A stretch of 58,023 bases of DNA from Thermofilaceae archaeon (lineage in GTDB: Archaea; Thermoproteota; Thermoprotei; Thermofilales; Thermofilaceae): assembly GCA_038731975.1 (NCBI GenBank), contig JAVYQJ010000002.1, forward strand, positions 1-58,023. The letters are read 5' to 3'. Position numbers and translations under genes: made by a program. The notes beneath the pieces were generated by a model. That model was given only the letters and a program-made list of their open reading frames with translations. It was not told the DNA's origin and ran no database searches. Below are positions 2 to 38,947 of this stretch, one piece after another (within the stretch, counting starts at the first letter, position 1; each line of letters starts with the position of its first letter).

Positions 2-1798
2 ACCGGCTTCAACAATGGTTGGGGCCGATACTCGTTCTACAGGTGGGGTGACGGTTCAACGGAGAACCCGAGGAGCGTCTACCTGAGCGATAGCGTGCAG
101 CTGCTCGCCTACGTCTGGGATGAGAGGCTGCTCAAGGTCACCTACACAGCAGGTGGTGTTGTAAGGGTGAACGGGACCCAGGTCTCGAGCGGCTGGAGCA
201 GCTGGTACAGGTACGGCTCCACAGTAGTGCTAGAGGCGGTGCCCAACTCTGGCTACTACTTCCAGAAGTGGCAGAGGGGAGTTGACAGCGACTCCCTGAG
301 CGATTACTCTACCAGCAACCCCATCATCGTTACCGTGGACAACGGCTACCGGTTCCACGCCGTCTTTGACGCCTTGAAGTGGCTGACTGTGCAGGTCTAC
401 CGGGTGGATAAGGCAGGGAGCAGCCTGGGTGGTGCTGGGGGCGTGCAAGTGAGGATCGATGGCAACAGCTACACCGCCGACTCCAACGGCGTCGTCAAGG
501 TGCAGGTGGTTCCCGGTACGCACACGGTCGAGATCGTTCAGACGAGCTTCAACGACGGCTGGGGGAGGTACACCTTCTGGAGGTGGTGGGACGGCAGCAC
601 AGCGAACCCGAGGACCTTCACCGTCACTGCGGACTCGACGGTCACAGCGTACGCTTGGGATGAAAGGCTCCTTAAGATTACTTACACCAGCGGTGGAGCT
701 GTGAAAGTGAACGGTACGCAGGTCTCGAGCGGTTACACAACGTGGTGCAGGTACGGCAGCGTTGCGACCCTAGAGGCTGTACCGAGCTCCGGCTACCAGT
801 TCGTCAAGTGGCAGAGGGGAGTGAACAGCGACTCCTTAAGCGATTATTCTACGTCTAACCCCATCACCGTTACCTTGGATAACGGCTACAGGTTCCACGC
901 GGTCTTCGGCACCACCTACACGTTCACTGTCGAGGTGAGGAGGGTCGATTACGCGGGCACCGACATCGGCCCAGCCGTTGCAGCCGTCGTTGTCGTGAAC
1001 GGGCAGAGCTACACGACGGACAGCAGCGGTAGAGTAACCTTCACCAACGTTGCACCGGGAGCGAGCTTCACTGTGCAGTTCAACCAGCAGACCTTCAACA
1101 GCGGCTGGGGGAGGTACACCTTCTGGAAGTGGTGGGACGGCAGCACGAGCAACCCGAGGACTTTCACGGTCACTGGGGATACGACTGCCACAATGTACGT
1201 CTACGATGAGAGGCTGCTGAAGGTGAGCTACGGCAGTAGCGGGGTCGTGAGGGTGAACGGTACGCAGGTCTCCAGCGGCTGGAGCAACTGGTACAGGTTC
1301 GGGGTTAGAGTGGTACTGGAGGCTGTGCCCAACTCGGGCTACGCGCTCCAGAAGTGGCAGCGCGGAGTAAACACGGATACGCTGAGCGACTACGACGTGA
1401 GGCTGAAGGAGACAGTGACGGCGAGCGGGAGCAGCGAAGTAGTGGCGGTTGTCACTAGCAACGCTTACACCGGGTACATTGAGGCAACAATGAGCTACAC
1501 ATCACCGGGCGGAAGAATGGGCATCTGGATGGCCCGAATCGAGGCGTGCCCCACCTCCGCGTGTTACACGTTCGATCTACTCAACTCGACGGGTTGGATG
1601 ACTGGCAGCGGGAGCGGCACGCTCACCTACAGAGGCACGCTGCAGGCGAGCAGGTACATACGTTTCACGCTAACCGCTCCAATGGGCTTCACCAGCACCG
1701 CCTCCTTAACCGGAACCGTTTTGAGACCGGCAACCAACCCACTGTTAGTAACCGTGGACAACGGCTACCACTATCGAGCGGAGTTCGGAGCTCCGTGA
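2..1798 (+). CDS. Secreted repeat protein, 5' partial (InlB B-repeat-like)
   Basis: The frame is open from base 2 and continues the same repeat found downstream, so the gene starts before the window; the GTG at 95 is only an internal codon. It is built from units of about 180 residues, each with a GWGRYTFWRWWDGST segment, a DERLLKV(T/S)Y...VNGTQVSSG segment and a LEAVPxSGYxxxKWQRG...VTVDNGY segment ending in AVF. The last segment resembles the divergent InlB B-repeat seen in bacterial and archaeal surface proteins. The sequence is rich in Trp, Tyr, Ser and Thr and has no membrane segment in the visible part. It ends in a plain repeat with no C-terminal anchor, so it is probably secreted or anchored at its unseen N-terminus. 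The last unit is interrupted by about 114 residues of different sequence. It may be an adhesin or S-layer-associated protein; the function is inferred only. Confidence 0.85.
   Translation, partial: TGFNNGWGRYSFYRWGDGSTENPRSVYLSDSVQLLAYVWDERLLKVTYTAGGVVRVNGTQVSSGWSSWYRYGSTVVLEAVPNSGYYFQKWQRGVDSDSLSDYSTSNPIIVTVDNGYRFHAVFDALKWLTVQVYRVDKAGSSLGGAGGVQVRIDGNSYTADSNGVVKVQVVPGTHTVEIVQTSFNDGWGRYTFWRWWDGSTANPRTFTVTADSTVTAYAWDERLLKITYTSGGAVKVNGTQVSSGYTTWCRYGSVATLEAVPSSGYQFVKWQRGVNSDSLSDYSTSNPITVTLDNGYRFHAVFGTTYTFTVEVRRVDYAGTDIGPAVAAVVVVNGQSYTTDSSGRVTFTNVAPGASFTVQFNQQTFNSGWGRYTFWKWWDGSTSNPRTFTVTGDTTATMYVYDERLLKVSYGSSGVVRVNGTQVSSGWSNWYRFGVRVVLEAVPNSGYALQKWQRGVNTDTLSDYDVRLKETVTASGSSEVVAVVTSNAYTGYIEATMSYTSPGGRMGIWMARIEACPTSACYTFDLLNSTGWMTGSGSGTLTYRGTLQASRYIRFTLTAPMGFTSTASLTGTVLRPATNPLLVTVDNGYHYRAEFGAP
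119..1393 (+). repeat. In-gene tandem repeats of about 540-546 bp
   Basis: The segment encoding DERLLK recurs at 119, 659 and 1205, giving periods of 540 and 546 bp. The bases following it are also close to identical between copies (for example the stretches coding VNGTQVSSG and KWQRGV). The high DNA-level identity suggests recent duplication or ongoing homogenisation inside the gene. Confidence 0.8.
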
Positions 1799-2420: not shown

Positions 2421-2738
2421 CTAGCCTTTCGCCTCGACCAGCAGCAGCGTGCCGTTCACGCTCACCAGGGTGTAGGCGTAGCAGCGCCCCCTGCTGCCTC
2501 CCCTGGAGAGCACTCTGCCGTCCGGGTAGCGGAGGACAATGGTGAAGCCTGAGGGGGGTCTCACGCCGCTCCAGCCCGCCAGAGTGATGTTCTGCGCGGC
2601 CTGCCCTGCTACCTCCAGCGCTCTAGCGTAGCAGTCGAACGCGAGCGTGTAGGCTCTGGACCCCCTAGCGTAGAAGTGGAGCAGTAACGCAGCTGCTAGC
2701 ACGGTTGCAGCGACAGTGAGCAGGGCGTCAACCCTCAC
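2421..2738 (-). CDS. Small membrane-anchored protein of the pilus locus
   Basis: A 105-residue protein with one hydrophobic N-terminal segment (about residues 5-24) starting almost at the N-terminus, followed by a soluble domain of about 75 residues with two cysteines. The layout, short basic start then one hydrophobic helix then a globular domain, is that of minor pilins or TadE/TadF-like pseudopilins, but it has no clear class III cleavage motif. Its start overlaps the preceding gene by 11 bp, so it is probably translated with the two membrane genes upstream as the last gene of the leftward pilus operon. The family is not recognised. Confidence 0.6.
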   Translation of the reverse strand: MRVDALLTVAATVLAAALLLHFYARGSRAYTLAFDCYARALEVAGQAAQNITLAGWSGVRPPSGFTIVLRYPDGRVLSRGGSRGRCYAYTLVSVNGTLLLVEAKG

Positions 2739-2964
2739 GCCTCCACCACCTCGAGAACCTTAAGGCGAGCCCCACAAGCGCGGAGTAGGTTACGCCCAGC
2801 GCCGCCAGGATGGAGGTGAGAAGGGCCAGCGCGGATAGAGGCCAAACGGCGCTGAAGGGCACATCAAAGGATAGGAGTAAGCAGGTGGCTGCGAGGCAGG
2901 CTAGGAACACCATCGCGAGGAACGTGAGGTCCCCTGAACCCGCTCCCACACTCTCACCCTGCAA
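2728..2964 (-). CDS. Small two-helix membrane protein
   Basis: A 78-residue protein with two hydrophobic segments (about residues 13-33 and 38-62) and a basic C-terminal tail (RFSRWWRREG). It overlaps the T2SF platform gene by 11 bp and the following small gene by 11 bp, a tight arrangement typical of co-translated subunits. It probably sits in the membrane beside the platform protein; no family is recognised. Confidence 0.6.
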   Translation of the reverse strand: MQGESVGAGSGDLTFLAMVFLACLAATCLLLSFDVPFSAVWPLSALALLTSILAALGVTYSALVGLALRFSRWWRREG

Positions 2965-4219
2965 AGAGGTGGGGCGCGTACATGATCGCTAGCAGCCACG
3001 CGAGCCAGACCGCGCCAGCACATAAGGGTAAGTAAAGTGGCAGGAGGTGTGGTCTACCTTCCCTAGCTCCTGAAGTAGCGGCTGCCAAGGTTAGGGAGAC
3101 GGTGGCGAGGATGGGGTCGATCCACTCCCTCAGCTCGTGCACGCCGGCGCCGCTGATACCCGTCCTAGCGAGCCACTCCCCACCCCCCTCTCCCGCAGCC
3201 AGGATGGCTCCCGAAGAGATGACGACTGCGTATATCGCACCGACGATCGCCGCTTCAACCACCGCGTAAACCAGGAAGACCCTCGTCTTCCCCCTCAACC
3301 TGTTCACGAACTCCAATACCTGTGACATGTACTCCTCCAGCTTCCTCAAGTTCTCGTAACCACCATGTAAGAGAACCTGCCACAAGCCCAGCGTGGCAGC
3401 TCTAGTGAAACCCTTCCACTCCGGGCTCAGCAGGTCCTCGGGATCCTTGATCAACCCCTCCCTAACTAATGCGTAGTAGGGGTTGCCCACAGCCCTAGCC
3501 GCTACCCTCACCATCTCCCTCGCTTTCTCTAACTTTCTTAACTCGGCCCGGGAGTGGTAGAGGTGGAGCACCATCGTTGGAAGAGAGCCCACCGCTAGGG
3601 CTAGCGTCAGAGGCGCCTCAAGCCCAAAATGGGAGAAGAGGAGGAAGAGCGGGAGCACGGCTAGCATGGGCAGGTAGGTGCGCCAGGGCGGCGAGGGTAC
3701 GCCGTACTCCCAGGGGAAGATCACCACGCCAGCGAGGAGCGCCAGCATCAGGCCCACCACAGTCAAGGCGAGAGCGGTTGAAGCCGCTCCGGTGCCGATC
3801 AGGGCCACCGTCGCCACTATCGTGGCGGGCACCGTGCTCGTGAAGGTTGAAACTAGCGAGTAGAGGTTCGAGATGTTGTAGTCAGCCGTTTCTAACGTGG
3901 TCCTCAGCTCCGCTAGCACATCCCTCAGCTTCTCCTCCAACGCTGAACGGCTGCCAGAGCGTTGAGTCTCGACGGCGGCGTTCAGCACCTTCTTCATCTT
4001 GTCGGACAAGCCGTCCAGCTTCGCGTCCCCCGAGTACAGCATCTCCGGCTCCGGTAGGTAGTCGAAGCCGTAGCGGCGCACCTCCTTCAGCGTGGTCAAG
4101 GGCAGCTGGGGCGATGACAGCATCACGAGGGCAAGGGGGACGGCGTCGGCCTCGCTCCTAAACCATGTGGGGAGCGAGAAGCTACCTCCACTCCTTCCGC
4201 TGCTCTTCCGCTTGGCCAC
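2954..4219 (-). CDS. Type II/IV secretion platform protein (T2SF, FlaJ/TadC-like)
   Basis: A 421-residue polytopic membrane protein. The N-terminal third is soluble and contains a helical stretch (about residues 70-125) like the cytoplasmic T2SF domain. Pairs of membrane segments follow at about 130-170 and 180-220, a second cytoplasmic helical region lies at 220-315, and more membrane segments follow at about 320-345 and 390-415. This helix-pair, cytoplasmic, helix-pair layout is that of the membrane platform of archaeal pili and of TadB/TadC. It would form the inner-membrane base on which the ATPase encoded at 8307-9851 acts. It is shorter than archaellar FlaJ (usually about 500 residues or more). 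Assigned from topology and context. Confidence 0.65.
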   Translation of the reverse strand: MAKRKSSGRSGGSFSLPTWFRSEADAVPLALVMLSSPQLPLTTLKEVRRYGFDYLPEPEMLYSGDAKLDGLSDKMKKVLNAAVETQRSGSRSALEEKLRDVLAELRTTLETADYNISNLYSLVSTFTSTVPATIVATVALIGTGAASTALALTVVGLMLALLAGVVIFPWEYGVPSPPWRTYLPMLAVLPLFLLFSHFGLEAPLTLALAVGSLPTMVLHLYHSRAELRKLEKAREMVRVAARAVGNPYYALVREGLIKDPEDLLSPEWKGFTRAATLGLWQVLLHGGYENLRKLEEYMSQVLEFVNRLRGKTRVFLVYAVVEAAIVGAIYAVVISSGAILAAGEGGGEWLARTGISGAGVHELREWIDPILATVSLTLAAATSGAREGRPHLLPLYLPLCAGAVWLAWLLAIMYAPHLFAG

Positions 4220-4264
4220 AGAGAAAGAAAAAGCTGTTAATTATAAGGCTTGCGGGCCACAGGC

Positions 4265-4693
4265 CTAGGGGACTGTGATCTTGGCACCCAAAGGTATGCG
4301 GTGCTGGCTGCCGCTCGGGTCCGTCCCCTGCACCGTCACGACCGCGCTCATCCCGTCGCTCAGCTGTATCGTTGTCGTGGTTCCGGAGCACGTTGCGCTC
4401 TGGCCCTTGCTGAGCGTGTTGGGACTGCAGGATAGCGTGATGGAGCCCGCGGCCACCTCGAGCGTGGCGGCGACGTTTGAGAGGTCCACGCTGCCGACGT
4501 TCCTCAGGTTCACCATGACCCTCCAGCTGGTGCCGCTCCCGACGGCGTAGGCAGCTGTCACCTCCACCAGCGGCTGCTGGACAGCGCTCCGGGCGGCGGC
4601 GTAAAGGAACCAGGAGACGAGGGCCGCCGCGACGATGGACGCTATCGTCACTAGGACGGTGACCATGGGCGGTACTCCACCCTTCCTCCTCAT
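4265..4693 (-). CDS. Archaeal prepilin with class III signal peptide
   Basis: With the start at 4693 the protein has 142 residues. It opens with MRRKGG, then PPMVTVLVTIASIVAAA and a hydrophobic helix: a class III signal peptide expected to be cut after the Gly by a PibD/FlaK-type peptidase. The rest is a beta-rich, Ser/Thr-rich domain with two cysteines (LSCSPN and ATCSGT) that could form a disulfide outside the cell. A longer frame and an alternative ATG at 4708 exist. I prefer 4693 because a TATA-like box lies 22-29 nt upstream, fitting leaderless transcription, and because the signal peptide then has its usual length. It shares the KG(G/A)xPPxVTV start with the prepilin at 7360-7806, so both probably enter the same filament or serve as major and minor pilins. 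Confidence 0.85.
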   Translation of the reverse strand: MRRKGGVPPMVTVLVTIASIVAAALVSWFLYAAARSAVQQPLVEVTAAYAVGSGTSWRVMVNLRNVGSVDLSNVAATLEVAAGSITLSCSPNTLSKGQSATCSGTTTTIQLSDGMSAVVTVQGTDPSGSQHRIPLGAKITVP

Positions 4694-4714
4694 CGGCTGA
4701 AAAAACATTCTATT

Positions 4715-4731
4715 GTTTTTATTCCTTTCGC
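4715..4731 (-). promoter_or_regulatory. TATA/BRE-like promoter of the first prepilin
   Basis: On the minus strand the sequence reads purine-rich GAAAGG followed by AATAAAAA, with the A/T box at 4715-4722. This is 22-29 nt before the ATG at 4693 and fits a leaderless archaeal promoter. It lies just past the 3' end of the frameshifted gene (4735), so the pilin can be transcribed separately from the upstream genes. Confidence 0.55.
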
Positions 4732-4734
4732 CTT

Positions 4735-5075
4735 TCAGGAGCGGGTTAAAGCGTCGAGAAGCTTCTCCTCCAGCTCCCCGATATCTTCCGCCGATACGAG
4801 CCGGACCCTCCCGCGCGGAGGAGGAACGCTTAGCGCTCCGCATAGAACCGCTATCACCACGTCTTCTCCCACGTCGAGGGCTTAGCGAGCTCCGCGAGCA
4901 GGGCTAAAGGTTCGGCGTGCCTCAGGGAGACGTAGACCCTGCGCCCCCCCTCGACGGCAAGGTTGAACTCGTGCAAGTAGCCGCTAAAACCCCTCACCTT
5001 ACCCTCAATAACAGCGAAGCCTGCGGCCTCAAGAGCTGCTTTGACCTCTCCTTTAACCTCCTTCAATACTCCCAC
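4735..5075 (-). pseudogene. Small Mrr-like protein gene split by an apparent frameshift
   Basis: The first part (5075 down to 4854) codes for 73 residues ending in LAKPSTWEKTW. Near 4880 another frame, with a stop codon just before it, continues as ALDVGEDVVIAVLCGAL and so on to a stop at 4735. Joining LLAELAK to ALDVGEDVVIAV gives one smooth 113-residue protein, and the total length of 341 nt is one base short of a whole number of codons. I read this as a one-base deletion near 4878-4884. The joined protein has a GFSGYLHEFNLAV stretch like small archaeal restriction-endonuclease-fold (Mrr-like) proteins, but lacks an obvious catalytic ExK. It could be a real inactivation, a sequencing error or recoding. 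The start overlaps the methyltransferase gene by 23 bp. Confidence 0.6.
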
Positions 5076-6045
5076 CCCTGCTCGCCACGACGATGGGGGC
5101 TGGGAACTCCGTCCTCCGCTCCACCTTCCAGCCCGCCAGCCTCAGCATCTCGTAGAGCCGCCTGCGAGTGGGGTAGGGCCCTGAGCCGAGGAGGTAGGTG
5201 ATGAAGATCGTGGCCAAGTTGACCCTCTTATCCGAGACCCCCTGAGCCAGCAGCAGCCTCGGCGCAACCCTCCCCACAGCCTGAAGGAGGACGAGCGGGT
5301 CCGCGCACCAGCTGAGCACGTTGATAGCGACAGCCCAATCCACCATGTCCACCAGCTTGTCCACCTCCTCACCCCTACCCACCCTGGTCTCAAGCCTGTC
5401 CGCGAGCCCCAGGATCTCTGCATAGAGCTTGGCGGCCTCGAGGTTCTCCCTGTACGGGTCAACGGCAATAACCCTGCTCCCCGGGACCACCCTCAGTATC
5501 GCGATGGAGGAGAGGCCAATGCCAGCCCCAACGTCCAGCACCAGGCTGTTTGGGGGTATGCGGGCCCACCTCACCACGTACTCCCGGAACCAGTTGTAGC
5601 CCATGCTGTCGAGCAGCTTGGCGAAAGCCGCGCGGATCTCGCCGCTCGCGGCTGAGGCGGCGTAGGGGCGCATGCCGGTCAGCAGCGCCTCCGGCAGGGA
5701 TGCGAGCACGCGGTCGACAACGGTCTTGAACTCGCCCACAAACCGGGTTCTCACCGCCGGCGCCTCACCGGCCGGCTTAGTGAAGCGGAGCCTATCTCCA
5801 ACCCAGACCGCGTAGCCGGACTCCACCATGAAGTCGCAAACCATCCTGGCCAGCGTCTGGTCCACGAACTCGTGGAACGGCTTAACTTCAAGCTCCCTGT
5901 CCAGCTTAGACTCTTCGAGCACCTTTCGCATCCTCCAGGCGACGTAGCGCTCAAACTCCCCTTTAGCTCTGACGATCTCCCGCCCCTCCCTCGACCCCAC
6001 CATCCTCAGGGCGAAGCGGATGAGGCTCGGGTCCACCCTAACCAC
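5053..6045 (-). CDS. Class I SAM-dependent methyltransferase, pilus-locus associated
   Basis: A 330-residue protein. The C-terminal half carries class I methyltransferase motifs: motif I VLDVGAGIGLSS (about residue 170), an acidic motif II end (VIAVDPY) and a post-motif NVLSWCADPL. The N-terminal 150 residues form a separate mostly helical region without recognised motifs and may recognise the substrate. The gene lies inside the leftward pilus operon, overlapping the zinc-ribbon gene upstream by 8 bp and the frameshifted gene downstream by 23 bp. It might modify a pilus or surface component, but the sequence does not show the substrate. Confidence 0.75.
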   Translation of the reverse strand: MVRVDPSLIRFALRMVGSREGREIVRAKGEFERYVAWRMRKVLEESKLDRELEVKPFHEFVDQTLARMVCDFMVESGYAVWVGDRLRFTKPAGEAPAVRTRFVGEFKTVVDRVLASLPEALLTGMRPYAASAASGEIRAAFAKLLDSMGYNWFREYVVRWARIPPNSLVLDVGAGIGLSSIAILRVVPGSRVIAVDPYRENLEAAKLYAEILGLADRLETRVGRGEEVDKLVDMVDWAVAINVLSWCADPLVLLQAVGRVAPRLLLAQGVSDKRVNLATIFITYLLGSGPYPTRRRLYEMLRLAGWKVERRTEFPAPIVVASRGGSIEGG

Positions 6046-6463
6046 CCCCTCCCTCCTCCACCTCCAGGACCCCCAGCTCCAGCAGGAGCTTCAGCGCCCT
6101 CTGGACAGCTGGAGTTAGCGATGCGTCGGGGTCGACGCCTTGGATTGCTTTTACAATGTCGCTCTTCAAGTGCTCGAGAGTGCTGGGCCAGAGCTCGGGC
6201 CTCGCCAGCCGCAGCCTGCCTGTGCCGAGGGGCTTCTCCACTTCGATGGGCCGGACGCTTCTCACGTCGTTATGCTCGTCGGCCATCACTAGGAAGTAGC
6301 CCCTGCACGTGCACTTCAGGAGGTTGAGCCCCGGCTTCACCTCCACAACGAGAGGCTCGGAGCAGTGGGGGCAGCGCAACTTAATGATCTTCGCAGCTCT
6401 CCAGGATTCTCCCTCCAGGATCTCCACCACAGGCTCTGTATTAATTCCTAGACTTAAACCCAT
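6038..6463 (-). CDS. Zinc-ribbon protein, uncharacterised
   Basis: A 141-residue protein with a CPHC pair (about residues 31-34) and a CTC motif (about 51-53), consistent with a small zinc ribbon near the N-terminus. The C-terminal half is helical (about residues 85-135) and ends in an acidic, Gly-rich tail. It overlaps the methyltransferase gene by 8 bp, so the two are probably co-translated. It might be an adaptor or nucleic-acid-binding subunit; the family is not recognised. Confidence 0.6.
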   Translation of the reverse strand: MGLSLGINTEPVVEILEGESWRAAKIIKLRCPHCSEPLVVEVKPGLNLLKCTCRGYFLVMADEHNDVRSVRPIEVEKPLGTGRLRLARPELWPSTLEHLKSDIVKAIQGVDPDASLTPAVQRALKLLLELGVLEVEEGGGG

Positions 6464-6475
6464 CTTTTCACCGCT

Positions 6476-6832
6476 TTACGCGAACCTCTGAGCGGGCTTT
6501 GATGCTGCACTTACCGCTGCAGCCTTTCTGCGCCCCCTTTTCCCGGTCTTAGCGAAGACCAGTAGGCTGCGGCTGTGGGGGAGCACCTCGACGCCCTCCA
6601 CCCAGTACCCCCTGCTCTTCCTCCTCGCGTAAACCCTCACCAGCCTATACCCGTTGCCCTCGCACGTCTTCAAAACGAGGTTGAGAATGCGATGCGAGTT
6701 GCTTGGACCCAGGCCGGTCGCCCGCATCAGCTCCGATAGGGGGACGGTGAAGAGGCGGCCCCGGGTCCTCTCAGCCCTCCCCCGCAGGACCGCTTCAACC
6801 GCCCTCTCCGGGTCTACGGGCTTCCTTGCCAC
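6476..6832 (-). CDS. Small basic protein, possible winged-helix DNA binder
   Basis: A 118-residue, very basic protein. Residues about 28-60 (TVPLSELMRATGLGPSNSHR) look like a helix-turn-helix, followed by a beta-hairpin-like stretch and a Lys/Arg-rich tail. The GTG start at 6832 has an A/T-rich box 21-30 nt upstream (6853-6862). This is the first gene of the group running left from 6.8 kb, divergent from the gene at 6907, so it may regulate this shared promoter region. DNA binding is inferred from composition and the HTH-like stretch only. Confidence 0.5.
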   Translation of the reverse strand: MARKPVDPERAVEAVLRGRAERTRGRLFTVPLSELMRATGLGPSNSHRILNLVLKTCEGNGYRLVRVYARRKSRGYWVEGVEVLPHSRSLLVFAKTGKRGRRKAAAVSAASKPAQRFA

Positions 6833-6852
6833 AAAGGTTAGGCTGCAAACTA

Positions 6853-6887
6853 TTATTTATTTCTATCGTCGAGTTGTGCATAATAAG
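6853..6887. promoter_or_regulatory. Divergent promoter region
   Basis: A short AT-rich island between divergent genes. An A/T box at 6853-6862 lies 21-30 nt before the leftward GTG at 6832, and a second box (CATAATAA, 6880-6887) lies 20-27 nt before the rightward GTG at 6907. Both spacings fit leaderless archaeal promoters. Confidence 0.45.
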
Positions 6888-6906
6888 CATCGGGTGAAAA
6901 CCTCTC

Positions 6907-7338
6907 GTGGAAAGCATTCAGGTGAAAGCCTCCCGGCTGCTGAAGGCCATAGAGGAGAGGATCTTAGAGCTAGAGGTGGGACCCCCAGCGGCGAGGATCG
7001 CGGCCATCTGCCTGAGGTACGGCGTTCCACCCCTCTCGCTGAGAAGAGCCCGGATGGAGGGGGTGGTGCTCAGGATAGGTTCCCGCTCCATCCCCTTGAG
7101 CGAGAGGGATGCAGTAGTGCTGAAGCCGTGGGTTGGCAGCCCTCAAGGGTTGAGGACCGTGGCTTACCACACGCACAAGGTGCTGAAAGATTACGGGTTG
7201 AAGGTGTACGACGTCCACCTGCTGAGGAGGATCGCTAAGGGCCAGCCACCCCGCAGAATCCCCCTCAGGCTGCTAAAAGCCCTCGAGCAGCTGGAGCACT
7301 TCAGCGGGGAAGAGGGGGGAGAGAAAAAGAAAGATTGA
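6907..7338 (+). CDS. Uncharacterised basic protein
   Basis: A 143-residue protein, rich in Arg and Leu and mostly helical, ending in a charged GEEGGEKKKD tail. It is the only rightward gene inside the leftward pilus region and lies between the two prepilin-containing groups. Residues about 28-50 (IAAICLRYGVPPLSLRRAR) have the character of a nucleic-acid-binding helix pair, but no family is recognised. The GTG start fits a TATA-like box 20-27 nt upstream. Its 3' end lies 21 bp from the convergent stop of the second prepilin. Confidence 0.5.
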   Translation: MESIQVKASRLLKAIEERILELEVGPPAARIAAICLRYGVPPLSLRRARMEGVVLRIGSRSIPLSERDAVVLKPWVGSPQGLRTVAYHTHKVLKDYGLKVYDVHLLRRIAKGQPPRRIPLRLLKALEQLEHFSGEEGGEKKKD

Positions 7339-7359
7339 ATTGATTTGAACCCTTTGCTT

Positions 7360-7806
7360 TTACGGTTTTGCTACGGCGAAGCTGATCTGGTAGCCGTCCT
7401 TCGTCTGCAGAGTCGCGAGAGCGCCGTCGGGGAACTGGTCGAGGTCCGCGTTTGCGGCTGTGTAGATGACGGAGACGCTGTCACCGGGGGCCAGCTTCAG
7501 GCTAGCTCCCTGTATAGCTGCAGTCGGGCTTCCGAACGTGACGCCCGCCTTAGTCTTGTTCTGCACGATTACGATCGAGCCTGCTAGGTCCACGTCGGCC
7601 GTCCCGTCGTTCTTGAAGGTGACCCTGAGCTCCACACCGGTCGCGGTGGCGTAGAGGGTGGGCTGCCCTATGACCGTCAGGGAGACCTGCCTGACGCCTC
7701 TAGCGGTCGTAGAGTAGATGAAGTAGGCTGCTAGGGCTGCGGCAACGACGGCTGCGATAACGATTATGACGGTCACGATCGGCGGCATCGCACCCTTCCT
7801 CTTCAT
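7360..7806 (-). CDS. Archaeal prepilin with class III signal peptide (second)
   Basis: From the ATG at 7806 (a TTG lies one codon before) the protein has 148 residues. It opens MKRKGAMPPIVTVIIVIAAV, a class III signal peptide with likely cleavage after Gly-Ala, then one hydrophobic helix and a beta-rich domain. It has no cysteines, unlike the prepilin at 4265. A TATA-like box at 7831-7838 lies 25-32 nt upstream. The two prepilins share the start motif and helix but differ in the outer domain, so they may be different subunits of one pilus or of two. Confidence 0.85.
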   Translation of the reverse strand: MKRKGAMPPIVTVIIVIAAVVAAALAAYFIYSTTARGVRQVSLTVIGQPTLYATATGVELRVTFKNDGTADVDLAGSIVIVQNKTKAGVTFGSPTAAIQGASLKLAPGDSVSVIYTAANADLDQFPDGALATLQTKDGYQISFAVAKP

Positions 7807-7828
7807 CAACTCTCACTGCGTACGACCA

Positions 7829-8005
7829 CTATTTATTCTTAACTCGAGTTTCGCTCCTCAATATAAGGAGCTCGATCGCTTCCTCATCGTTGAAGCCGTA
7901 CACGCTGAGGGCGGCGTACACCCCCCTGCGGAGCTCCTCCAGATCCCCGTCATCGAGAGAGGAGCTGCGAGGCTTCTTCCGCGCGAAGAGAGACTTGCTT
8001 AGCAC
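7829..8005 (-). CDS. Small 58-residue protein between pilus ATPase and prepilin
   Basis: A frame from GTG at 8005 to TAG at 7829 encodes 58 residues: a basic start (SKSLFARKKPR) and an acidic helical C-terminal half (LDDGDLEELRRGVYAALSVY). It has the residue mix of real coding sequence and fills an otherwise unexplained gap of about 230 bp in the leftward operon. Its last codons overlap the TATA-like box of the prepilin. No RBS is obvious. The function is unknown. Confidence 0.45.
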   Translation of the reverse strand: MLSKSLFARKKPRSSSLDDGDLEELRRGVYAALSVYGFNDEEAIELLILRSETRVKNK

Positions 8006-8067
8006 AAGGTTGGTGAGAAAAGCTTGAATTTATTCCTTGCTCAACAGCGGAAGAGGGGCGCAAAAAA

Positions 8068-8307
8068 TCAACTAATGTCGATGAAGATGGACTCCATCTC
8101 TTCAACCGCCCTGCTTAACCCTCCTGCTTCGTCCCCTCTCCTCCCCGGCAGAAGGCTCCTAGCCCCTCTCCCGGCTTTCCTCGCCTGCTTCTCCCTCCTC
8201 TCGGCCTCCCTGATGGCAGCTTTCGCGGCCCTCCTCATCTCCTCCACTTCTCTCTTTAGGGGATCCTCCTCTGAGGCGAAACCGAACAGCCTCCTCAGGC
8301 TCTCCAT
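8068..8307 (-). CDS. Small charged coiled-coil protein
   Basis: A 79-residue protein. Residues 17-50 are almost all Arg, Lys, Glu and Ala with a heptad-like pattern (REVEEMRRAAKAAIREAERR), suggesting a coiled coil; the end is acidic. Its start overlaps the stop of the secretion ATPase gene, so it is probably translated with it. It may be an ATPase accessory or adaptor; the family is not recognised. Confidence 0.55.
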   Translation of the reverse strand: MESLRRLFGFASEEDPLKREVEEMRRAAKAAIREAERREKQARKAGRGARSLLPGRRGDEAGGLSRAVEEMESIFIDIS

Positions 8308-9851
8308 CAGGACACCACCTCCTCCGGGACGATAGGTTCCATCTTCTCGAAGCGCACACCGTCCACCCTTGCGTTAAGCCTCTGCTTGATGACCCCGTAC
8401 ACCTTCTCGGCTTCGCTCGCGCCCTCGAGCGAGAGCTGCAGCTCCGGCGGGAGCAGTTGCAGGAAGTCCTCCTCCGGCAAGTACCGCCCAGCCTTGTAGA
8501 CTGGCACGAAGCCCCTCGCATCTACCACATACACCGCCTGCACCCCGCGCTGGATCCCGCCCTCCGACGACACCGTTTTCCCGCAGACCACCCAGACTCT
8601 CACGGCGTCCAGGACGGAGGCCTGGAGCCCCGAGGCCTGTATCAAAGTGTTGAGGCGCTTCAGCGCGTCAGCCAGCTCCTTGCTGTGCGCAGTCGTCAAA
8701 ACGGGAATGCCGCTGCCAGCCGCCTCAAACCAGCTCGGCACCTCCTCGCCCCTCAGCTCCCCCACTACTAGGAGGTCCGGCCTGTCGTAGCGCCGGGTTG
8801 CCCTAATGTTGGCTGTTACGTTCCTGTCGCCGAAGGAAAAGTACGAGACGACGTTCGGCCCCCGAACCTGCGTAGCCACCTCAGGCTCCTCCTCAACGAT
8901 GCTGACCCTCAATCTGGGCCACAGGCTCAGGATCGCGTTCAGCACCCCGATCAGGGCCGTCGTCTTGCCGGAGCCTGGGGGGCCGACGAACGTAATGCTG
9001 TTCGGCGAAGCGGTTAGAGTGACGAGCCTCGCTAGGAGCAATGGCTCGGCCCTGAAGGGTTCAACCCTCACCACGCGGGCTGCGGAGAGCTGCCAGCCAC
9101 CGGCTAGCTGTGGTAGTGCGAGGTTCACTCGCCACCCCCTGAACTCGCCGCTGTCCTGAGGGTTCCTCTCGGACAGCGGGATCCCAGCCTCGATCGCGAT
9201 GCGCTGGACCAGCCTCTCCACCAAGAGCTCCCGGGGCAGCTCGACGGTGTAGCGCCTCCCCTCGATGCCGGCTGTGATGTGGACCTCCCCGTCCAGCTCC
9301 CTAATGAAGATCTCCTGCGTCCCGGAGTACTCCACTAGGGGCTCCAGCGGCCCCCACGCCCCCTCCCTCTCCGCGTAAACCCTCACCACGCCGTCACCTA
9401 TGATCAAGTAACCGGATTGAGTCCGCACGAGCCTGCCGGTAATAGGGGGCAGCGGGACTTCAGCCCCCTCCAGCCTTCCAGCCTCACGGAGCCTTACTCG
9501 CGGAACGCGCCATACCTTTCTGAACGCGGGGGCAAGCCTGGGATGCCTCACCGGTTCCGCTTTCTCTCGCACCACCCCTGGTTGAACCGCTTCAGCTCGC
9601 GCCTTCATCGCTTCGGACTGCAGGCCTGTCAGCGTAGTAGCTGGTGACACGCTTTCAGCGGTACTCAGGGGGGTAGGCTGCGCAGCCTCTGGGGCCTCCT
9701 CTACCCCAAGCATTGATTGAGCAGCGCCACGCTCCCCCCCAACACTGGGTTGAAGGGGTACAGGTTCCGCTCCTCCTTCAGAGGCTTTCCGCAGCTTGCG
9801 CTGGGGAACCTCCTCGAGCTTGATCTTCAGCTTCACTTTGGTTAGCGGCAT
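8307..9851 (-). CDS. Type II/IV secretion ATPase (FlaI/TadA/GspE family)
   Basis: A 514-residue cytoplasmic hexameric ATPase that should power assembly of the pilus or secretion system. The first 110 residues are a Pro/Ala/Glu-rich, probably disordered extension. An N-terminal domain follows, then the C-terminal ATPase domain with Walker A GPPGSGKTT (about residue 290), an acidic Asp-box-like EEEPEV, Walker B-like LLVVGELRGEE and the His-box region TTAHSKELADAL. The prepilins, T2SF protein and MinD-like ATPase around it support the assignment. The long low-complexity N-terminus is unusual for the family and may tether the ATPase to partners, perhaps to the similar Pro/Ala-rich protein next upstream. 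Confidence 0.9.
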   Translation of the reverse strand: MPLTKVKLKIKLEEVPQRKLRKASEGGAEPVPLQPSVGGERGAAQSMLGVEEAPEAAQPTPLSTAESVSPATTLTGLQSEAMKARAEAVQPGVVREKAEPVRHPRLAPAFRKVWRVPRVRLREAGRLEGAEVPLPPITGRLVRTQSGYLIIGDGVVRVYAEREGAWGPLEPLVEYSGTQEIFIRELDGEVHITAGIEGRRYTVELPRELLVERLVQRIAIEAGIPLSERNPQDSGEFRGWRVNLALPQLAGGWQLSAARVVRVEPFRAEPLLLARLVTLTASPNSITFVGPPGSGKTTALIGVLNAILSLWPRLRVSIVEEEPEVATQVRGPNVVSYFSFGDRNVTANIRATRRYDRPDLLVVGELRGEEVPSWFEAAGSGIPVLTTAHSKELADALKRLNTLIQASGLQASVLDAVRVWVVCGKTVSSEGGIQRGVQAVYVVDARGFVPVYKAGRYLPEEDFLQLLPPELQLSLEGASEAEKVYGVIKQRLNARVDGVRFEKMEPIVPEEVVS

Positions 9852-9881
9852 GGCTCCACCCTTCCATCCGCTCTCATTTCG

Positions 9882-10277
9882 CTAGACGCCCAGGGTCTTG
9901 AGAATCCTCCTCGCAGCCCTCACTACCTCTAGGCGCCTCTGCCTCTCCTCTATCTCCTTCACCAGCCTTTGCTCCTCACCGTCCAGCGTCTGTGCATAGA
10001 CTTTGAGCGATTCAAGTGGCCTCACGTCGTAGCCCAGCTCCTTCAACGATTCAACCAGCTGGGCAAACGTGATAAACTCCTGCGGCCTCGCGGCCACGGG
10101 TTGAGAAGGCTGTAGAGAAGCCGGCTGATGGATGGCTGGGGAAGCCGGGAGATTCTGCGGAACAGCTTGAGGGGCAGCTGGCTGAGAAGCGGCTGGGGAA
10201 GCCAAGGGGTTAGTCCCCTTCAGCTTCTTGTGCTCCTCGAGGAAGTCCTTTACCGGAATATCCTTCTTCCCCTGCAC
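9882..10277 (-). CDS. Pro/Ala-rich linker plus coiled-coil protein
   Basis: A 131-residue protein: a short basic N-terminus, a Pro/Ala/Gln-rich stretch (about residues 25-65, with repeated QPA/SPA units), then a helical C-terminal part (70-131) with a likely coiled coil around EEQRLVKEIEERQRRLEVV. It sits between the ParA-like gene and the secretion ATPase. The low-complexity stretch resembles the N-terminal extension of the ATPase, so it could bridge the two ATPases. The GTG start fits an A/T box at 10302-10307. No family is recognised. Confidence 0.6.
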   Translation of the reverse strand: MQGKKDIPVKDFLEEHKKLKGTNPLASPAASQPAAPQAVPQNLPASPAIHQPASLQPSQPVAARPQEFITFAQLVESLKELGYDVRPLESLKVYAQTLDGEEQRLVKEIEERQRRLEVVRAARRILKTLGV

Positions 10278-10301
10278 GAAGTTATTGCAATACTGTAGTA
10301 C

Positions 10302-10985
10302 TTATTTCTTTCGGAGGAGGAGGTGGGCCAGCTTAGCTATGGCGGCGTCGAACTCGCCGCTCGTGTAGTTCAGGACCCTCAGCGTGCTGGGACCAAGCCT
10401 TGATACGGCCGGCTCGTAAGGTACAACGACGTAGTCTGCGCCAGCTTTTTTGCACCAGTAGGCCACGGTCTTCGAGTAGTAGTCGACCACGCTCCTTGGG
10501 TAGGGGCGGGGGCAGTTCAAGGCGACGACAACGCGCTTGCCGGTAAAGGTAAACAGCGCACTCTCGAGTGAAGCTGGGTTCGGCTCTGTGACGACTAGGA
10601 TCGAATCTGCCTCAAGAATCAGGGGAAGGTAGCGATCCACCGCATCAACATCTGTTAAAGCGGGGATGTCCACCAAGACCAGCGTGTAGCGTTGCGACCA
10701 TGTGCGTAAAGAGTTTATTACCTGTTCTGGCGAGCGCAATGGTCCCCTGTTAACCGCGACTGTCAGCCTGAAGGTATCATGCTCCACCTCTCTCAAGGAT
10801 GCATCGGGGTCATCTCTAAGGTAAGGAGGAGGAGTGTCACCCAGCAAGTAGGCTGTGGCACCGCCCTCGCTGCTAGCATCAACGAGCAAAGTGGGAACGC
10901 TAGAGGCTGCAGTTACGGAAAGGGAAACGGCTAGGGTTGTTTTACCCGTACCACCCTTGGACCCGCTAAACGTCGCTATAAGCAC
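10302..10985 (-). CDS. ParA/MinD-type ATPase (TadZ/CpaE-like candidate)
   Basis: A 227-residue SIMIBI-class ATPase. It has the deviant Walker A of the ParA/MinD family (KGGTGKTT, about residues 10-17), a switch-I-like VDASSEGG and a Walker B-like TLVLVDIPAL. It is the first gene of the leftward operon leading to the secretion ATPase, prepilin and platform genes. In bacterial Tad pili a MinD-like protein (TadZ/CpaE) places the pilus machine, so this could play that role here. A plasmid-type ParA is the alternative, because a ParB-like gene lies on the other side of the shared promoter. The GTG start has a TATA-like box (CTTAAAT, about 11008-11015) 23-30 nt upstream. Confidence 0.8.
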   Translation of the reverse strand: MLIATFSGSKGGTGKTTLAVSLSVTAASSVPTLLVDASSEGGATAYLLGDTPPPYLRDDPDASLREVEHDTFRLTVAVNRGPLRSPEQVINSLRTWSQRYTLVLVDIPALTDVDAVDRYLPLILEADSILVVTEPNPASLESALFTFTGKRVVVALNCPRPYPRSVVDYYSKTVAYWCKKAGADYVVVPYEPAVSRLGPSTLRVLNYTSGEFDAAIAKLAHLLLRKK

Positions 10986-11066
10986 GATTTCAAAGGATAT
11001 TATAACTAATTTAAGCTTTACTCGACACGTTCCGGGATGAATACAGCATCGTAGTAAGGATGCTAC

Positions 11067-11077
11067 ACTGTAGTACT
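11067..11077. repeat. 11-bp repeat shared with 10292-10302
   Basis: The 11-mer ACTGTAGTACT lies in the divergent ParA/regulator promoter region and again at 10292-10302, between the ParA-like gene and the next gene. Its core AGTACT is palindromic. It could be a binding site for the regulator or the ParB-like protein, or chance. Confidence 0.3.
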
Positions 11078-11105
11078 GATATCGCTATGTTGTATATGGT
11101 AAACT

Positions 11106-11113
11106 TTATATAT
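11106..11113 (+). promoter_or_regulatory. TATA box of winged-helix regulator
   Basis: TTATATAT lies 21-28 nt before the GTG at 11134, in a strongly AT-rich stretch. It supports a leaderless start at that GTG rather than at the TTG at 11116. Confidence 0.5.
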
Positions 11114-11133
11114 CATTGCTGACTGTTTCGCTT

Positions 11134-11472
11134 GTGAGCGAAAAGAAAGGCTTAAACTCAAATGAGAATACTGTTGATGATGAAATAGTAAAAGAATTAA
11201 TTCTAAATGGGCGACATTCCCAGATAGTTGTGCTTGTATTTTTATATAAGGTTGGTAAAGCCACCCTGTCAGACATACAACGAGCCTTAACAGGAGGTAA
11301 GTATCGGGCTCAGTATAATTGGACTCTAAGTGTTTTAAACGAGTTAAAAAACTTAGATCTTGTATATGAAGATCAAATCTTAATCAAAGAAAAAATAAAA
11401 GTTAGATTATTTGATTTAACAGAAAAGGGTAGAAGGATAGCAAGAAAGCTTAGCGAGATCTTACAGCTGTGA
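11134..11472 (+). CDS. AT-rich winged-helix regulator
   Basis: From the GTG at 11134 the protein has 112 residues. Residues about 35-105 look like a winged helix: a helix after QIVVLVFLYKVGKATLSDI, a recognition-type helix and a wing (ILIKEKIKVRLFDLTEKG). This is the MarR/PadR-like layout of archaeal transcription factors. The gene is much more AT-rich than its neighbours, with many AAA and ATA codons, which suggests recent transfer or a mobile-element origin. It diverges from the ParA/pilus operon and precedes the ParB-like gene, so it may regulate this locus. Confidence 0.7.
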   Translation: MSEKKGLNSNENTVDDEIVKELILNGRHSQIVVLVFLYKVGKATLSDIQRALTGGKYRAQYNWTLSVLNELKNLDLVYEDQILIKEKIKVRLFDLTEKGRRIARKLSEILQL

Positions 11473-11515
11473 CACTATGGGAAATTTTAAAATACTCCCG
11501 CGTCTCTGCCCACTG

Positions 11516-12406
11516 ATGTCGTCGGTGAGCTTAATTCCAATCGAGAAACTATTCCCATCTTCAGCCAACGTGAGGCTATATGTCTCGCCGGAGGCTGTGA
11601 GCAAGCTGGCGGAGGACATAGCCATGAGAGGCCTTCTGCACCCCCTGATCGTAAGGCCAGAAGGAAGCGGCTATGGCGTCGTTTGCGGTCGCATGCGGCT
11701 CGAAGCAATAAGGCTCCTGCAGAAGGAAAAGCCGGAGGTCTTCAAGAAGCTATTTTCTCAGGGTATACCCTGCGTAGTGAAGGAGCTGAGCGACGCGGAG
11801 GCCCTTGAGCTGTCTCTCAGCGAAAACTTGAGGCAGAACACTTTGACACCAGAGGAGCGCGGCAGGGGTTTAGCCAGGCTCTACGAGATGGGCGTTAGTG
11901 AGGAGGAGATCGCGGCCAGGCTACAGGTGGAGCTGGAGGAGATCAAGCGGTTTGTCCGCTTGTACGCGCGGTTGAGGGAGATCGCCCCAGTCGTAGCCGA
12001 GTCGAAACCCGGTAGGCCGCGCGAAACCAAACCTAAAAAGAGAGTGAGTAGGACCGGTATGGTAAAAGTCGTGAGAGCGATTGAGGACCTCGCAGCGCGC
12101 GGCGTATTGAGGGAACCAGAGGAAGTGGTGAGAAAGATAGCGGATTTAGCGGCAGAGAGGGGGCTTAGCACGAGTGAACTGGATATACTGGCTAGAAGGC
12201 TTAGAGAAAAACCCGAGCTTGTGCAAACACCTGAAAAGCTAGTGGAGGAGATATCCGCGGAGGAGATGGTGGAGCGCGTAGTGCTCCTAAAGCGTCATGT
12301 TGTAGAGTACGTAGAAGCCTGGGCGAGCGAGCGAGGTTTAACTTTCAGCGAGGCGCTCAACGAGATCATCAGTGAGTACATCAGCCTGAAAAAGGCGGCA
12401 GCTTAA
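11516..12406 (+). CDS. ParB/Srx-domain protein (ParB-like)
   Basis: From the ATG at 11516 the protein has 296 residues; an upstream ATG at 11477 adds 13. The N-terminal 110 residues match a ParB/Sulfiredoxin domain: IPIEKLFPSSANVR, then ...LAEDIAMRGLLHPLIVR..., CGRMRLEA and a LSENLRQNTLTPEE stretch as in ParB box II. An HTH-like region follows (MGVSEEEIAARLQVELEEI), then a helical C-terminal part with a ribbon-helix-helix-like end (AWASERGLTFSEALNEII). An A/T-rich box (ATTTTAAAATA, about 11484-11494) lies 22-32 nt before 11516, which supports this start. It may bind DNA and partner with the divergent ParA-like ATPase. Confidence 0.8.
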   Translation: MSSVSLIPIEKLFPSSANVRLYVSPEAVSKLAEDIAMRGLLHPLIVRPEGSGYGVVCGRMRLEAIRLLQKEKPEVFKKLFSQGIPCVVKELSDAEALELSLSENLRQNTLTPEERGRGLARLYEMGVSEEEIAARLQVELEEIKRFVRLYARLREIAPVVAESKPGRPRETKPKKRVSRTGMVKVVRAIEDLAARGVLREPEEVVRKIADLAAERGLSTSELDILARRLREKPELVQTPEKLVEEISAEEMVERVVLLKRHVVEYVEAWASERGLTFSEALNEIISEYISLKKAAA

Positions 12407-12422: not shown

Positions 12423-13241
12423 GTGTCCGCACTGGCTAATTCGATACTCGAGGCTCTCGAGGAGGAGGGGCAAGTAACTGTTATCGGGAGCCATCCCGGG
12501 TTTAGGGAAAAAGTTGTTGCTAATACGATCAGAGCCGCCACTAAAGCTTATGAAGCGATCTCGGTCGTTGATTGGTACGGAGCGTACAACGTAGATGCGA
12601 TACAGACCGTTGAGCCGACTCTACCCTACGCTAGCGCAGCAAAATACCTCCCACTCGCTGTCTCCTCAATGCATGGCCTCTACAGGATTGGAGCACTGGT
12701 AGAAGGGCTTTTACACGAAGCTGTGCAAAGTTCCGATAGTTTCCACCAAGTAGTATCGCGACTCGAAGCTCTTTCTACTCAAAGAGTTTGGGCGCGCACG
12801 ATCCTTTCAAAAATAGCTCCATTGAAAGATTACTTTGTAGAAAACATCACCCTACCGACCAAGTTTCGCGTAAACCTATTCAAGGCGCCGGTTTTGATCA
12901 GACGCCCCCTTTCTCAACTTTGGGTGGCTCTCGTAAGTGAGACAGTAGCAGCACAGAAAGGTTTGCTTGTTGTGAGTGAGGCTGGACGTGTGATTAAGCG
13001 TGGCTGGTGGGTCTGGAGTCTCATCGACGATGCTAGGGTTAGAGGAGCCAGGGTTCTGCTAGCTGACAGTCGTCTCCTTAGAACCTACCTGCTGAACACA
13101 CTTGTATTCACGGATTACAGGCCTGAAGAAGCCCTGGCGGCACAAAGGTACAGGTTGCAAATACTGACCAAAAAGTGGGTGAAGGGAAAAGCCCTGTTGG
13201 TTAAAGATCCTGAAGAACCACGCTTACTCAATATTGAGTAG
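12423..13241 (+). CDS. Uncharacterised protein, possible inactive HerA/VirB4-like ATPase
   Basis: A 272-residue protein 16 bp downstream of the ParB-like gene and probably in its operon. It opens with a strand-like QVTVIGSHPGFREKVV, where a P-loop would be expected but no GxxxxGK is present. Near the C-terminus LLVVSEAGRVI and ARVRGARVLLADSRLL resemble the Walker B and following helix region of HerA/VirB4-type ATPases, but the catalytic acidic residues are not clear. It may be a degenerate ATPase or an unrelated family; the function is unknown. It ends 7 bp before the CCA end of the tRNA-Arg on the other strand. Confidence 0.5.
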   Translation: MSALANSILEALEEEGQVTVIGSHPGFREKVVANTIRAATKAYEAISVVDWYGAYNVDAIQTVEPTLPYASAAKYLPLAVSSMHGLYRIGALVEGLLHEAVQSSDSFHQVVSRLEALSTQRVWARTILSKIAPLKDYFVENITLPTKFRVNLFKAPVLIRRPLSQLWVALVSETVAAQKGLLVVSEAGRVIKRGWWVWSLIDDARVRGARVLLADSRLLRTYLLNTLVFTDYRPEEALAAQRYRLQILTKKWVKGKALLVKDPEEPRLLNIE

Positions 13242-15712: not shown

Positions 15713-16408
15713 TTGTTCTCTAGGTATGCAGCCCTGGTTAAGAACCTAAGAGGCGTTGTACTGCTGAACCCTAATGAGGAAGGTGCTTTAGACACTGTAA
15801 AATGGTTATCTAAAAGATTCAGATATAGAAACCTTGGATTAACTCCTTCGTCCGTGAAAGCCCTCGGCGGTAGGGTCTTCAGACCCTTCAGGGAACTAGC
15901 ATACCCGATAAAGCCGCTAGAGGTGCTGGTATCCCGTTTTACCGGAAAGGGTATGCCCCCAGAGCTGGCTGAGCTGCTGGTTTTCGCCTCAACATACGTT
16001 TCTCCCGCGCTAATCATCGGATCAACGTACTTAAGCTCGCTTGAAGAAATCAAAGTGGACGTGGTCAGAGTTTGCAGGGATCTGAGCGTATTGGATTGGA
16101 AACTGCACTTGCGAGTCGCGGACTACACTGTTCTGGACATGTACGACGTTTGCGTAGAGGAGGCGCTCTCGGTTCTCAAGGACCCCAGCGTACTTCCCAA
16201 AGTAGTCGCAGAAAGGAGGGAGAGGGTAGCCGAGGACAAGAAACGCTACTGGAGAATCGCGTGCGAGAGCGGGCGCCCCTTCATAATCTACATCGACAAC
16301 CTCTCGATAGCGGCGAAGCTGGGAGTGCTTGAGGAAGAGGTTTGCGAGGATTGGGCGGCGGCGCTCAGCGTGGTAGCCGTGGTCTGTGTTCCGGCAGGTC
16401 TCAGGTAG
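15713..16408 (+). CDS. Uncharacterised protein preceding SF2 helicase
   Basis: A 231-residue protein whose TTG start follows directly on the stop of the glycosidase gene (ATGATTG overlap). It is mixed alpha/beta with no signal or membrane segment and no motif I recognise. A conserved-looking core includes VVRVCRDLSVLDW and FIIYIDNLSIAAKLG. It ends about 35 bp before the likely start of the large helicase and is probably its operon partner. It could be a nuclease or recognition subunit, but nothing in the sequence proves that. Confidence 0.55.
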   Translation: MFSRYAALVKNLRGVVLLNPNEEGALDTVKWLSKRFRYRNLGLTPSSVKALGGRVFRPFRELAYPIKPLEVLVSRFTGKGMPPELAELLVFASTYVSPALIIGSTYLSSLEEIKVDVVRVCRDLSVLDWKLHLRVADYTVLDMYDVCVEEALSVLKDPSVLPKVVAERRERVAEDKKRYWRIACESGRPFIIYIDNLSIAAKLGVLEEEVCEDWAAALSVVAVVCVPAGLR

Positions 16409-16443
16409 CGAAAAGTACTTCCCCAACCTCTTCAAGCGAACGT

Positions 16444-36381: not shown

Positions 36382-36387
36382 TGGAAT

Positions 36388-37860: not shown

Positions 37861-37861
37861 G

Positions 37862-38170: not shown

Positions 38171-38400
38171 CTCTCTCCCACCTCGGATAGCAGGTGTAGG
38201 AGGGCTACTACAACGGCAACGAGAAGCAGAAGCTGCGCGAACATGTCAGCCCACCTCGCCGTCCATAGAAGCGCAAGTGGTTGCTCCCTAGCTACAAACC
38301 ACGCAGGCCTCAGCTCATGCTCTACCGCCAGCAAAATGAGCGCCACAGCAGTTGTGACGACGGCCATGGCGAGCGAGACGAGCCTACTCACCACTCTCAC
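38143..38400 (-). CDS. Complex I-like J subunit, C-terminal part
   Basis: An 85-residue protein with two membrane helices (about residues 5-25 and 50-70). It follows the N-terminal J part and precedes K, the position of the second half of NuoJ/FpoJ when the subunit is encoded by two genes. The sequence is too short to prove homology; order and topology support it. It overlaps the J-N gene by 17 bp. Confidence 0.6.
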   Translation of the reverse strand: MRVVSRLVSLAMAVVTTAVALILLAVEHELRPAWFVAREQPLALLWTARWADMFAQLLLLVAVVVALLHLLSEVGERWRSSTPTR

Positions 38401-38946: not shown

Positions 38947-38947
38947 G

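Follow-up and report, generated by a model that had tools for sequence, protein, structure and literature searches.

Archaeal type IV pilus loci that hold a secretion ATPase, a TadC-like platform and class III prepilins are already known to carry FleN/MinD ATPases (arCOG00589/arCOG05608; PMC4858521, PMC6668835), and the word 'ParB' is absent from the main text of Makarova 2016 (PMC4858521). In bacterial Tad systems the MinD/ParA-family ATPase fixed in the pilus operon is TadZ/CpaE, and Flp/Tad pili are needed for transformation in Micrococcus (PMC6370729). In Methanococcus, Epd-type pili and a MinD/ParA ATPase are both required for natural transformation (PMC10133366). Among DNA-exchange systems of archaea, the Ups/Ced model of Sulfolobales includes a ParB-domain nuclease (PMC11868833), and the DNA-transfer pilus of Ted in Thermoproteales is accompanied by HerA and a MinD/ParA ATPase in neighbouring genes (PMC9905601). 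Here we describe a locus at positions 2421-12406 of a 58,023-nt stretch of Thermofilaceae archaeon DNA (contig JAVYQJ010000002.1 of assembly GCA_038731975.1; this whole stretch is called the window), in which a type IV pilus operon opens with the gene of a ParA/MinD-type ATPase and a ParB-like gene is divergently transcribed.

The window was assigned to the order Thermofilales, and the relatives carrying named records were Thermofilaceae/Thermofilales metagenome-assembled genomes (MAGs). We read the locus as a Thermofilales type IV pilus locus with two attached modules whose pilus may serve DNA uptake or exchange, giving this reading slightly less than an even chance; our confidence in the anatomy of the locus is high, and it is for function that it falls below one half. 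The locus shares its secretion ATPase, TadC-like platform, class III prepilins and MinD/ParA ATPase with the archaeal type IV pili named above; the system differs from these in its winged helix-turn-helix (wHTH)-ParB, HerA-fold and Orc-like AAA+/C2H2 neighbours. From 10985 downwards on the minus strand, the ParA/MinD-type ATPase (227 aa) was followed by a proline-rich/coiled-coil protein (131 aa) and a TadA-type ATPase (514 aa). A charged protein of 79 aa and one prepilin came next, then an insert in which HTH, zinc-ribbon and methyltransferase genes lie, and lastly the other prepilin, the platform and a pair of small membrane proteins. On the divergent side lay the wHTH gene, ParB and then a 272-aa gene without any family match. 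The features were as follows.

2-1798, plus strand: surface protein of the c9 family with divergent InlB B-repeats, truncated by the edge of the window; PF18998 in three stretches, E 9e-12; the family adjoins pilus genes in 11 loci
2421-2738, minus strand: small pilin-like protein with one transmembrane (TM) segment, kept next to the platform in 7 loci
2728-2964, minus strand: small membrane protein, seen as an open reading frame (ORF) only
2954-4219, minus strand: pilus platform of divergent TadC/T2SF type, kept in 19 loci
4265-4693, minus strand: class III prepilin (MRRKG↓GVPPMVTV...), recognised by its N-terminal motif; family in 19 loci; start set from the signal sequence, ORF opens at 4843
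5053-6463, minus strand: methyltransferase (5053-6045; Methyltransf_25, E 2e-7) and zinc-ribbon-like protein (6038-6463) within the operon, a pair also present in G002
6476-6832, minus strand: small HTH-like protein with a very weak HTH match, also in G002
7360-7809, minus strand: class III prepilin (MKRKG↓AMPPIVTV...), recognised by its N-terminal motif; conserved
8068-8307, minus strand: 79-aa charged protein after the secretion ATPase, conserved in 6 loci
8307-9851, minus strand: TadA-type secretion ATPase, with orthologues in relatives
9882-10277, minus strand: probable adaptor with a proline-rich linker and a coiled coil, encoded between ParA and the secretion ATPase; family in 17 loci, in both pilus-type operons
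10302-10985, minus strand: ParA/MinD-superfamily (FleN/MinD-type) pilus ATPase, from its deviant Walker A, profile match and tree
11046-11083, no strand: possible operator, with weak, imperfect palindromes carrying TGCTACA/TGTAGTA boxes in the AT-rich intergenic region; second copy of a 23-nt repeat at 10286-10308
11116-11472, plus strand: winged-helix protein (MarR/AspA-like fold), constant neighbour of ParB
11516-12406, plus strand: ParB/Noc-type protein with ParB_N domain, HTH and putative ribbon-helix-helix (RHH)-like C-terminal domain; ORF opens at 11477
12423-13241, plus strand: HerA/VirB4-fold protein with degenerate Walker A (pseudo-HerA)

The components that identify an archaeal type IV pilus, a TadA/PilB-type secretion ATPase, a TadC/T2SF platform and class III prepilins, were all found. 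The secretion ATPase matched T2SSE at 63 bits (E 2e-17), with the TadA-type model TIGR03819 as its top NCBIfam match. None of 17 platform orthologues matched PF00482, yet profile-profile comparison (hhalign) with a two-protein alignment that included one PF00482-positive member gave 97% probability and E 1e-10 over 377 columns; the T2SF platform of the initial annotation therefore stands only as a divergent member of that family. Both prepilins, about 140-150 aa long, opened with KG↓(A/G)xPPxVTV and hydrophobic N termini, and the NCBIfam N-terminal prepilin model gave merely 13 bits on them. The initial annotation had likewise read a secretion ATPase, two class III prepilins, a ParA/MinD-type ATPase heading the operon and a divergent ParB-like gene, all of which are present, and had mentioned neither the wHTH gene between ParA and ParB nor the HerA-fold gene after ParB. 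Its description of the pilus as Tad-like holds for the MinD/ParA-family ATPase fixed in the operon, as TadZ/CpaE is in Tad systems, but the pilus is not strictly of Tad type: one platform gene was found per operon, where the bacterial Tad pilus has separate TadB and TadC, the prepilins are long compared with the very short Flp pilin, and the ATPase has no AREC domain.

The ParA of this locus belongs to the pilus itself and is of MinD/FleN type. It carries a deviant Walker A (KGGTGKT), its catalytic motifs are intact, and it scored 24 bits with CbiA, slightly below the cut-off; in profile comparison archaeal MinD (1g3q) matched at full length (E 1e-16 over 3-229), followed by FlhG/FleN, and ParA/Soj structures matched at the P-loop only. 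The protein begins at the P-loop, without the N-terminal receiver-like (AREC) domain of TadZ/CpaE, and the alignment showed no extension beyond the last core helix, the site of the MinD C-terminal membrane-targeting helix. In a 62-row tree the pilus-linked ATPases, including those of loci without ParB, formed one clade (96/98), with plasmid ParA and many chromosomal ParA/Mrp-like proteins lying across a supported branch. TadZ was left out of this tree, TadZ_N having matched none of ten bacterial genomes nor the controls, so the comparison of ATPases proposed by the initial annotation covers plasmid ParA, which lay apart from the pilus clade, and not TadZ. ParA lay beside the secretion ATPase without ParB in G017, G023, G025, G008 and G024, and also in a second operon of G009, G011-G013 and G015 that repeats the order ParA, linker, TadA without ParB or platform. 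Because ParA was kept beside the secretion ATPase without ParB, fell in a single clade and had no plasmid match, we assign it to the pilus, and the separation of the ParA module from the ParB module is made with high confidence.

The second operon (L116, L117, L118, L133 and L142, in G011, G012, G013, G009 and G015, respectively) runs ParA2, linker, TadA2 and a helicase that looks XPD-like by inspection; it has no platform gene, yet multi-TM genes and a HerA/VirB4-like ATPase adjoin it, and it is a candidate Thermofilales Ced/Ted-like DNA transfer system. A helicase resembling that of the second operon (c22 family, by inspection) was also present in the window at 49698-51131 (plus strand), without TadA2 nearby.

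The ParB ORF (11477-12406, plus strand) matched ParB_N at 43 bits against a cut-off of 26, and its orthologues suggest a true start at ATG 11516, giving 296 aa. Its closest solved relatives were Spo0J, ParB and Noc, and its structural model (pLDDT 85) lay nearest to Noc, ParB and KorB, with ParB-N of plasmid pNOB8 aligning along its length (TMq 0.43). The C-terminus, a coil-helix-helix pattern in the monomer model with weak matches to RHH_1, RHH_5 and ParG, reads as RHH-like. Key residues of the CTPase boxes GxxR and EN..PEE were invariant, and the protein probably acts as a DNA clamp that is gated by nucleotide and ends in an RHH tail. ParB thus shares its CTPase fold and HTH with ParABS systems, but differs in lacking the ParA-binding motif and in not being paired with ParA: the motif [LFI]G[KR]G[LFI], as applied in a 2025 survey (PMC12704722), was absent from 14 of 15 ParB homologues, the single match being internal (L126). 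Instead, 16 of the order's 17 ParB genes had a wHTH gene no more than 130 bp away, which makes this gene, and not ParA, the constant partner of ParB. The wHTH protein had weak MarR-type matches, with AspA matches (E 0.025-0.037) ranking below them. Full-length relatives of ParB occurred in this order and in one genome of the same class, G030; among 397 genomes of the phylum the next-ranking ParBs reached no more than about 100 bits, most of them matching in the N-terminal part, in a search whose query included several of the top rows. The family is thus nearly confined to Thermofilales. A relative of Saci_1498 type was sought for ParB, and only short fragments in four distant genomes were found, so homology was not shown. 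The distant ParB of G030 (L119) is surrounded by numerous small zinc-ribbon ORFs of a recurring 'GWSQK' type, a setting that resembles a virus or another mobile element, and G015 carries four ParB copies (L105-L108), each with a divergent wHTH gene and one near a TnpB-like ORF.

Of 61 genomes searched, 22 had the platform, most of these belonging to the same order, and 14 had ParB. Most genomes with ParB had the platform, as did many without ParB, and because such co-occurrence across the order is only suggestive, the argument is carried by linkage. The core order ParA, linker, TadA, prepilin, platform was kept in many families of the order, and ParB lay 0-591 bp from a pilus core gene in nine of ten judgeable genomes (G000, G001, G002, G003, G006, G009, G014, G018 and G020), contig ends having removed G016, G019 and G022 from the count. 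In the tenth, G015, no ParB was near core genes, but two of the four copies lay about 100 bp from pilus accessory genes. ParB took at least five arrangements: it diverges from ParA or precedes it in tandem, converges with the TadA end or with a platform-side pilin-like gene, or lies downstream of the platform. Since the loci are related by descent and the counts not independent, the case rests on repeated rearrangement with proximity retained rather than on raw counts. The arrangement is conserved well beyond chance. The initial annotation had asked whether gene order is conserved in relatives, and it is the linkage of ParB, in differing orders, that was. By inspection, topoisomerase-VI-like genes adjoined ParB in G014, G003 and G016.

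New in this analysis is that the ParB/pilus neighbourhood repeatedly carries DNA-handling genes. Directly after ParB in the window's genus, g1, stood a HerA/VirB4-fold gene, the 272-aa protein of the window (12423-13241) included. In fold comparison by Foldseek this protein matched HerA (E 7e-8) and VirB4 (TMq 0.68), and motif inspection agreed: it keeps 'DWYGxY', like 'DFWGEY' of HerA, and has lost the Walker A lysine-serine, for which reasons we call it a pseudo-HerA. Comparison with HerA by sequence alone gave 0.4% in hhalign, with no PDB match. In two G015 loci ParB was followed by an intact, TM-anchored HerA. An AAA+ protein with matches to an Orc/Cdc6-type lid and a C2H2 finger protein flanked ParB in several genomes, and in the window's own genome (1.85 Mb in 87 contigs) a C2H2/AAA+ pair followed pilus accessory genes on contig C37. 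ParB was adjoined in G009, and twice in G015, by a RadA paralogue paired with a PD-(D/E)XK-like protein, and had such a pair near it in G018; the PD-(D/E)XK-like protein, recognised by motif inspection with no Pfam match, is probably a RecB/Cas4-like nuclease. An ordinary RadA/nuclease pair occurred elsewhere in most genomes, so the pair is not specific to ParB loci. The fullest set was found on the single contig of G009, in the order TM-anchored HerA/VirB4, RadA paralogue, nuclease-like protein, C2H2, AAA+, wHTH, ParB and pilus.

These neighbours suggest a fuller proposal, which we offer tentatively and think somewhat more probably wrong than right: a DNA uptake or exchange system in which a type IV pilus with a MinD-type ATPase is joined by a ParB/Noc-type clamp and the wHTH protein that partners it, by translocases of HerA/VirB4 type, by an Orc/Cdc6-like AAA+ paired with a C2H2 finger, and by a RadA paralogue and a nuclease, the paralogue being dedicated to the system. 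Both the function and the order of events are inferred. The MinD/FleN-type ParA, the coiled-coil adaptor and the TadA-type ATPase would make up a fixed unit that controls and drives the pilus. In this unit ParA may switch or place the machine, as the analogy with TadZ, with FleN and with the MinD-like ATPase of Methanococcus transformation suggests. The wHTH-ParB pair would bring DNA handling, with ParB clamping, or serving as a loading platform for, DNA that the pilus has captured or that passes between the cells it holds together. Together with the HerA/VirB4-type translocases (degenerate in the window's genus), the AAA+ with C2H2 finger, the RadA paralogue and the nuclease, ParB might then receive, process or recombine this DNA. 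Like Ups/Ced, such a system would tie a pilus to a ParB-domain protein (there a Saci_1498 homologue), to DNA processing and to HerA/VirB4-type ATPases, but the upsX-E-F-A-B order is absent here and ParB is a full ParB/Noc-type protein with an RHH-like tail (PMC11868833). Ted differs in having a VirB2-like pilin and type IV secretion system parts, where this locus has a type IV pilin/TadA/TadC machine. The Epd pili of Methanococcus also combine a type IV-like pilus with a MinD/ParA ATPase, whose gene there stands in a separate two-gene operon, and the passages of that report consulted here mention no wHTH-ParB neighbour (PMC10133366). Several points weigh against uptake or exchange: the window locus encodes no DNA-uptake channel, the HerA-type gene next to its ParB has no Walker A motif, RadA/nuclease genes adjoin the locus in some genomes only, and most compared genomes are fragmented MAGs. 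Moreover, gene linkage is not function, ParB/Noc-type proteins also act as regulators, and the large repeat adhesins of the locus fit plain adhesion equally well.

Regulation is the strongest rival, one that we consider rather unlikely: wHTH-ParB would be a local regulator of the pilus, binding the AT-rich control region, spreading as a clamp and silencing or activating pilin and adhesin genes, as KorB or VirB do. In genus g1 the pilus promoter region is indeed where the pair stands, the nearest folds to ParB include KorB and Noc, and VirB is a ParB-related CTP-dependent regulator (PMC10770331). The wHTH gene and the region upstream of it (10986-11115) have 34% GC against 56% for the window, and the wHTH gene of relatives was also AT-richer than its own locus in some, not in others. 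The region holds the palindromic TGCTACA/TGTAGTA boxes and a 23-nt repeat not expected by chance, which offer no more than a lead; as candidates for a parS palindrome the palindromes are imperfect, and the boxes are not conserved across the family. As a shared operator, we considered 8-10-mers common to the loci and rejected them as AT-rich promoter-like words of borderline significance. Several ParB loci, moreover, adjoin AAA+/HerA/RadA genes away from the pilus core (G015 and the second G003 copy), and regulation alone leaves the HerA/VirB4, RadA and nuclease partners unexplained.

The initial annotation had favoured a pilus positioned, perhaps at cell poles, by a ParA/ParB-type system; ParB bound to the chromosome would then tether the machine by way of ParA. 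ParA and ParB are indeed neighbours in genus g1 and in tandem in G014, and ParA keeps its catalytic motifs intact; pNOB8 ParB, furthermore, contacts its ParA through a linker and not an N-terminal tail (PMC5120986). However, the ParA-binding motif is lacking, ParA occurs without ParB in many loci, the ParB-linked pilus operon of G020 has no adjacent ParA, ParB keeps company with the wHTH gene instead, and ParA is MinD/FleN-like rather than Soj-like, so that we now regard positioning by such a pair as improbable. Still more doubtful is the alternative named with it, a partition module of plasmid origin, here an AspA-ParB-ParA cassette as on pNOB8 that came from a plasmid or integrated element and landed by the pilus genes, or that segregates the chromosome. 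The gene content wHTH, ParB and ParA in one neighbourhood is that of AspA-ParBA, known from crenarchaeal plasmids and chromosomes (PMC5120986), and the weak AspA matches, the alignment of pNOB8 ParB-N with the ParB model and the four G015 copies, one next to a TnpB-like ORF, all point the same way. Against this, ParA is a pilus ATPase placed in the pilus clade, ParB has 296 aa and an RHH-like C-terminus where pNOB8 ParB has about 470 aa and a histone-like C-domain, and pilus linkage recurs across families in different orders. A plasmid or phage origin of ParA and ParB was rejected, as ParA had no plasmid match and plasmid and phage matches to ParB were limited to its N-terminal half; neither gene grouped with plasmid or viral proteins, and with the linkage of ParB conserved, the result that the initial annotation had named as refuting its reading was not obtained. 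The pilus locus is chromosomal.

The remainder of the window resembled ordinary chromosome, with, for example, phenylalanyl-tRNA-synthetase-like genes at 46185-49489 (by inspection). At 13478-19539 a GH5-type glycoside hydrolase, a 231-aa protein and a DEAD-box helicase kept their order downstream of ParB in close relatives, and 33135-42013 (minus strand) held a large membrane-bound complex-I-like/NiFe-hydrogenase-type gene cluster, as judged by eye. The methyltransferase and zinc-ribbon pair of the pilus operon (5053-6463, minus strand) is oriented opposite to the pilus genes in G002 (L126).

A 2025 survey attributed archaeal ParA/ParB adjacency to likely contamination (PMC12704722). The proximity reported here is genuine, a single-contig genome being among those that show it, and is not that of a ParABS system, because ParA is the pilus ATPase and ParB lacks the ParA-binding motif. 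ParABS calls made from gene neighbourhood in archaea should allow for such cases. The genes of Ups pili have been reported absent from other Crenarchaea (PMC11868833); the conserved neighbourhood of pilus and DNA-handling genes in Thermofilales supplies named genes with which the uptake and exchange of chromosomal DNA by archaea outside Sulfolobales may be tested.

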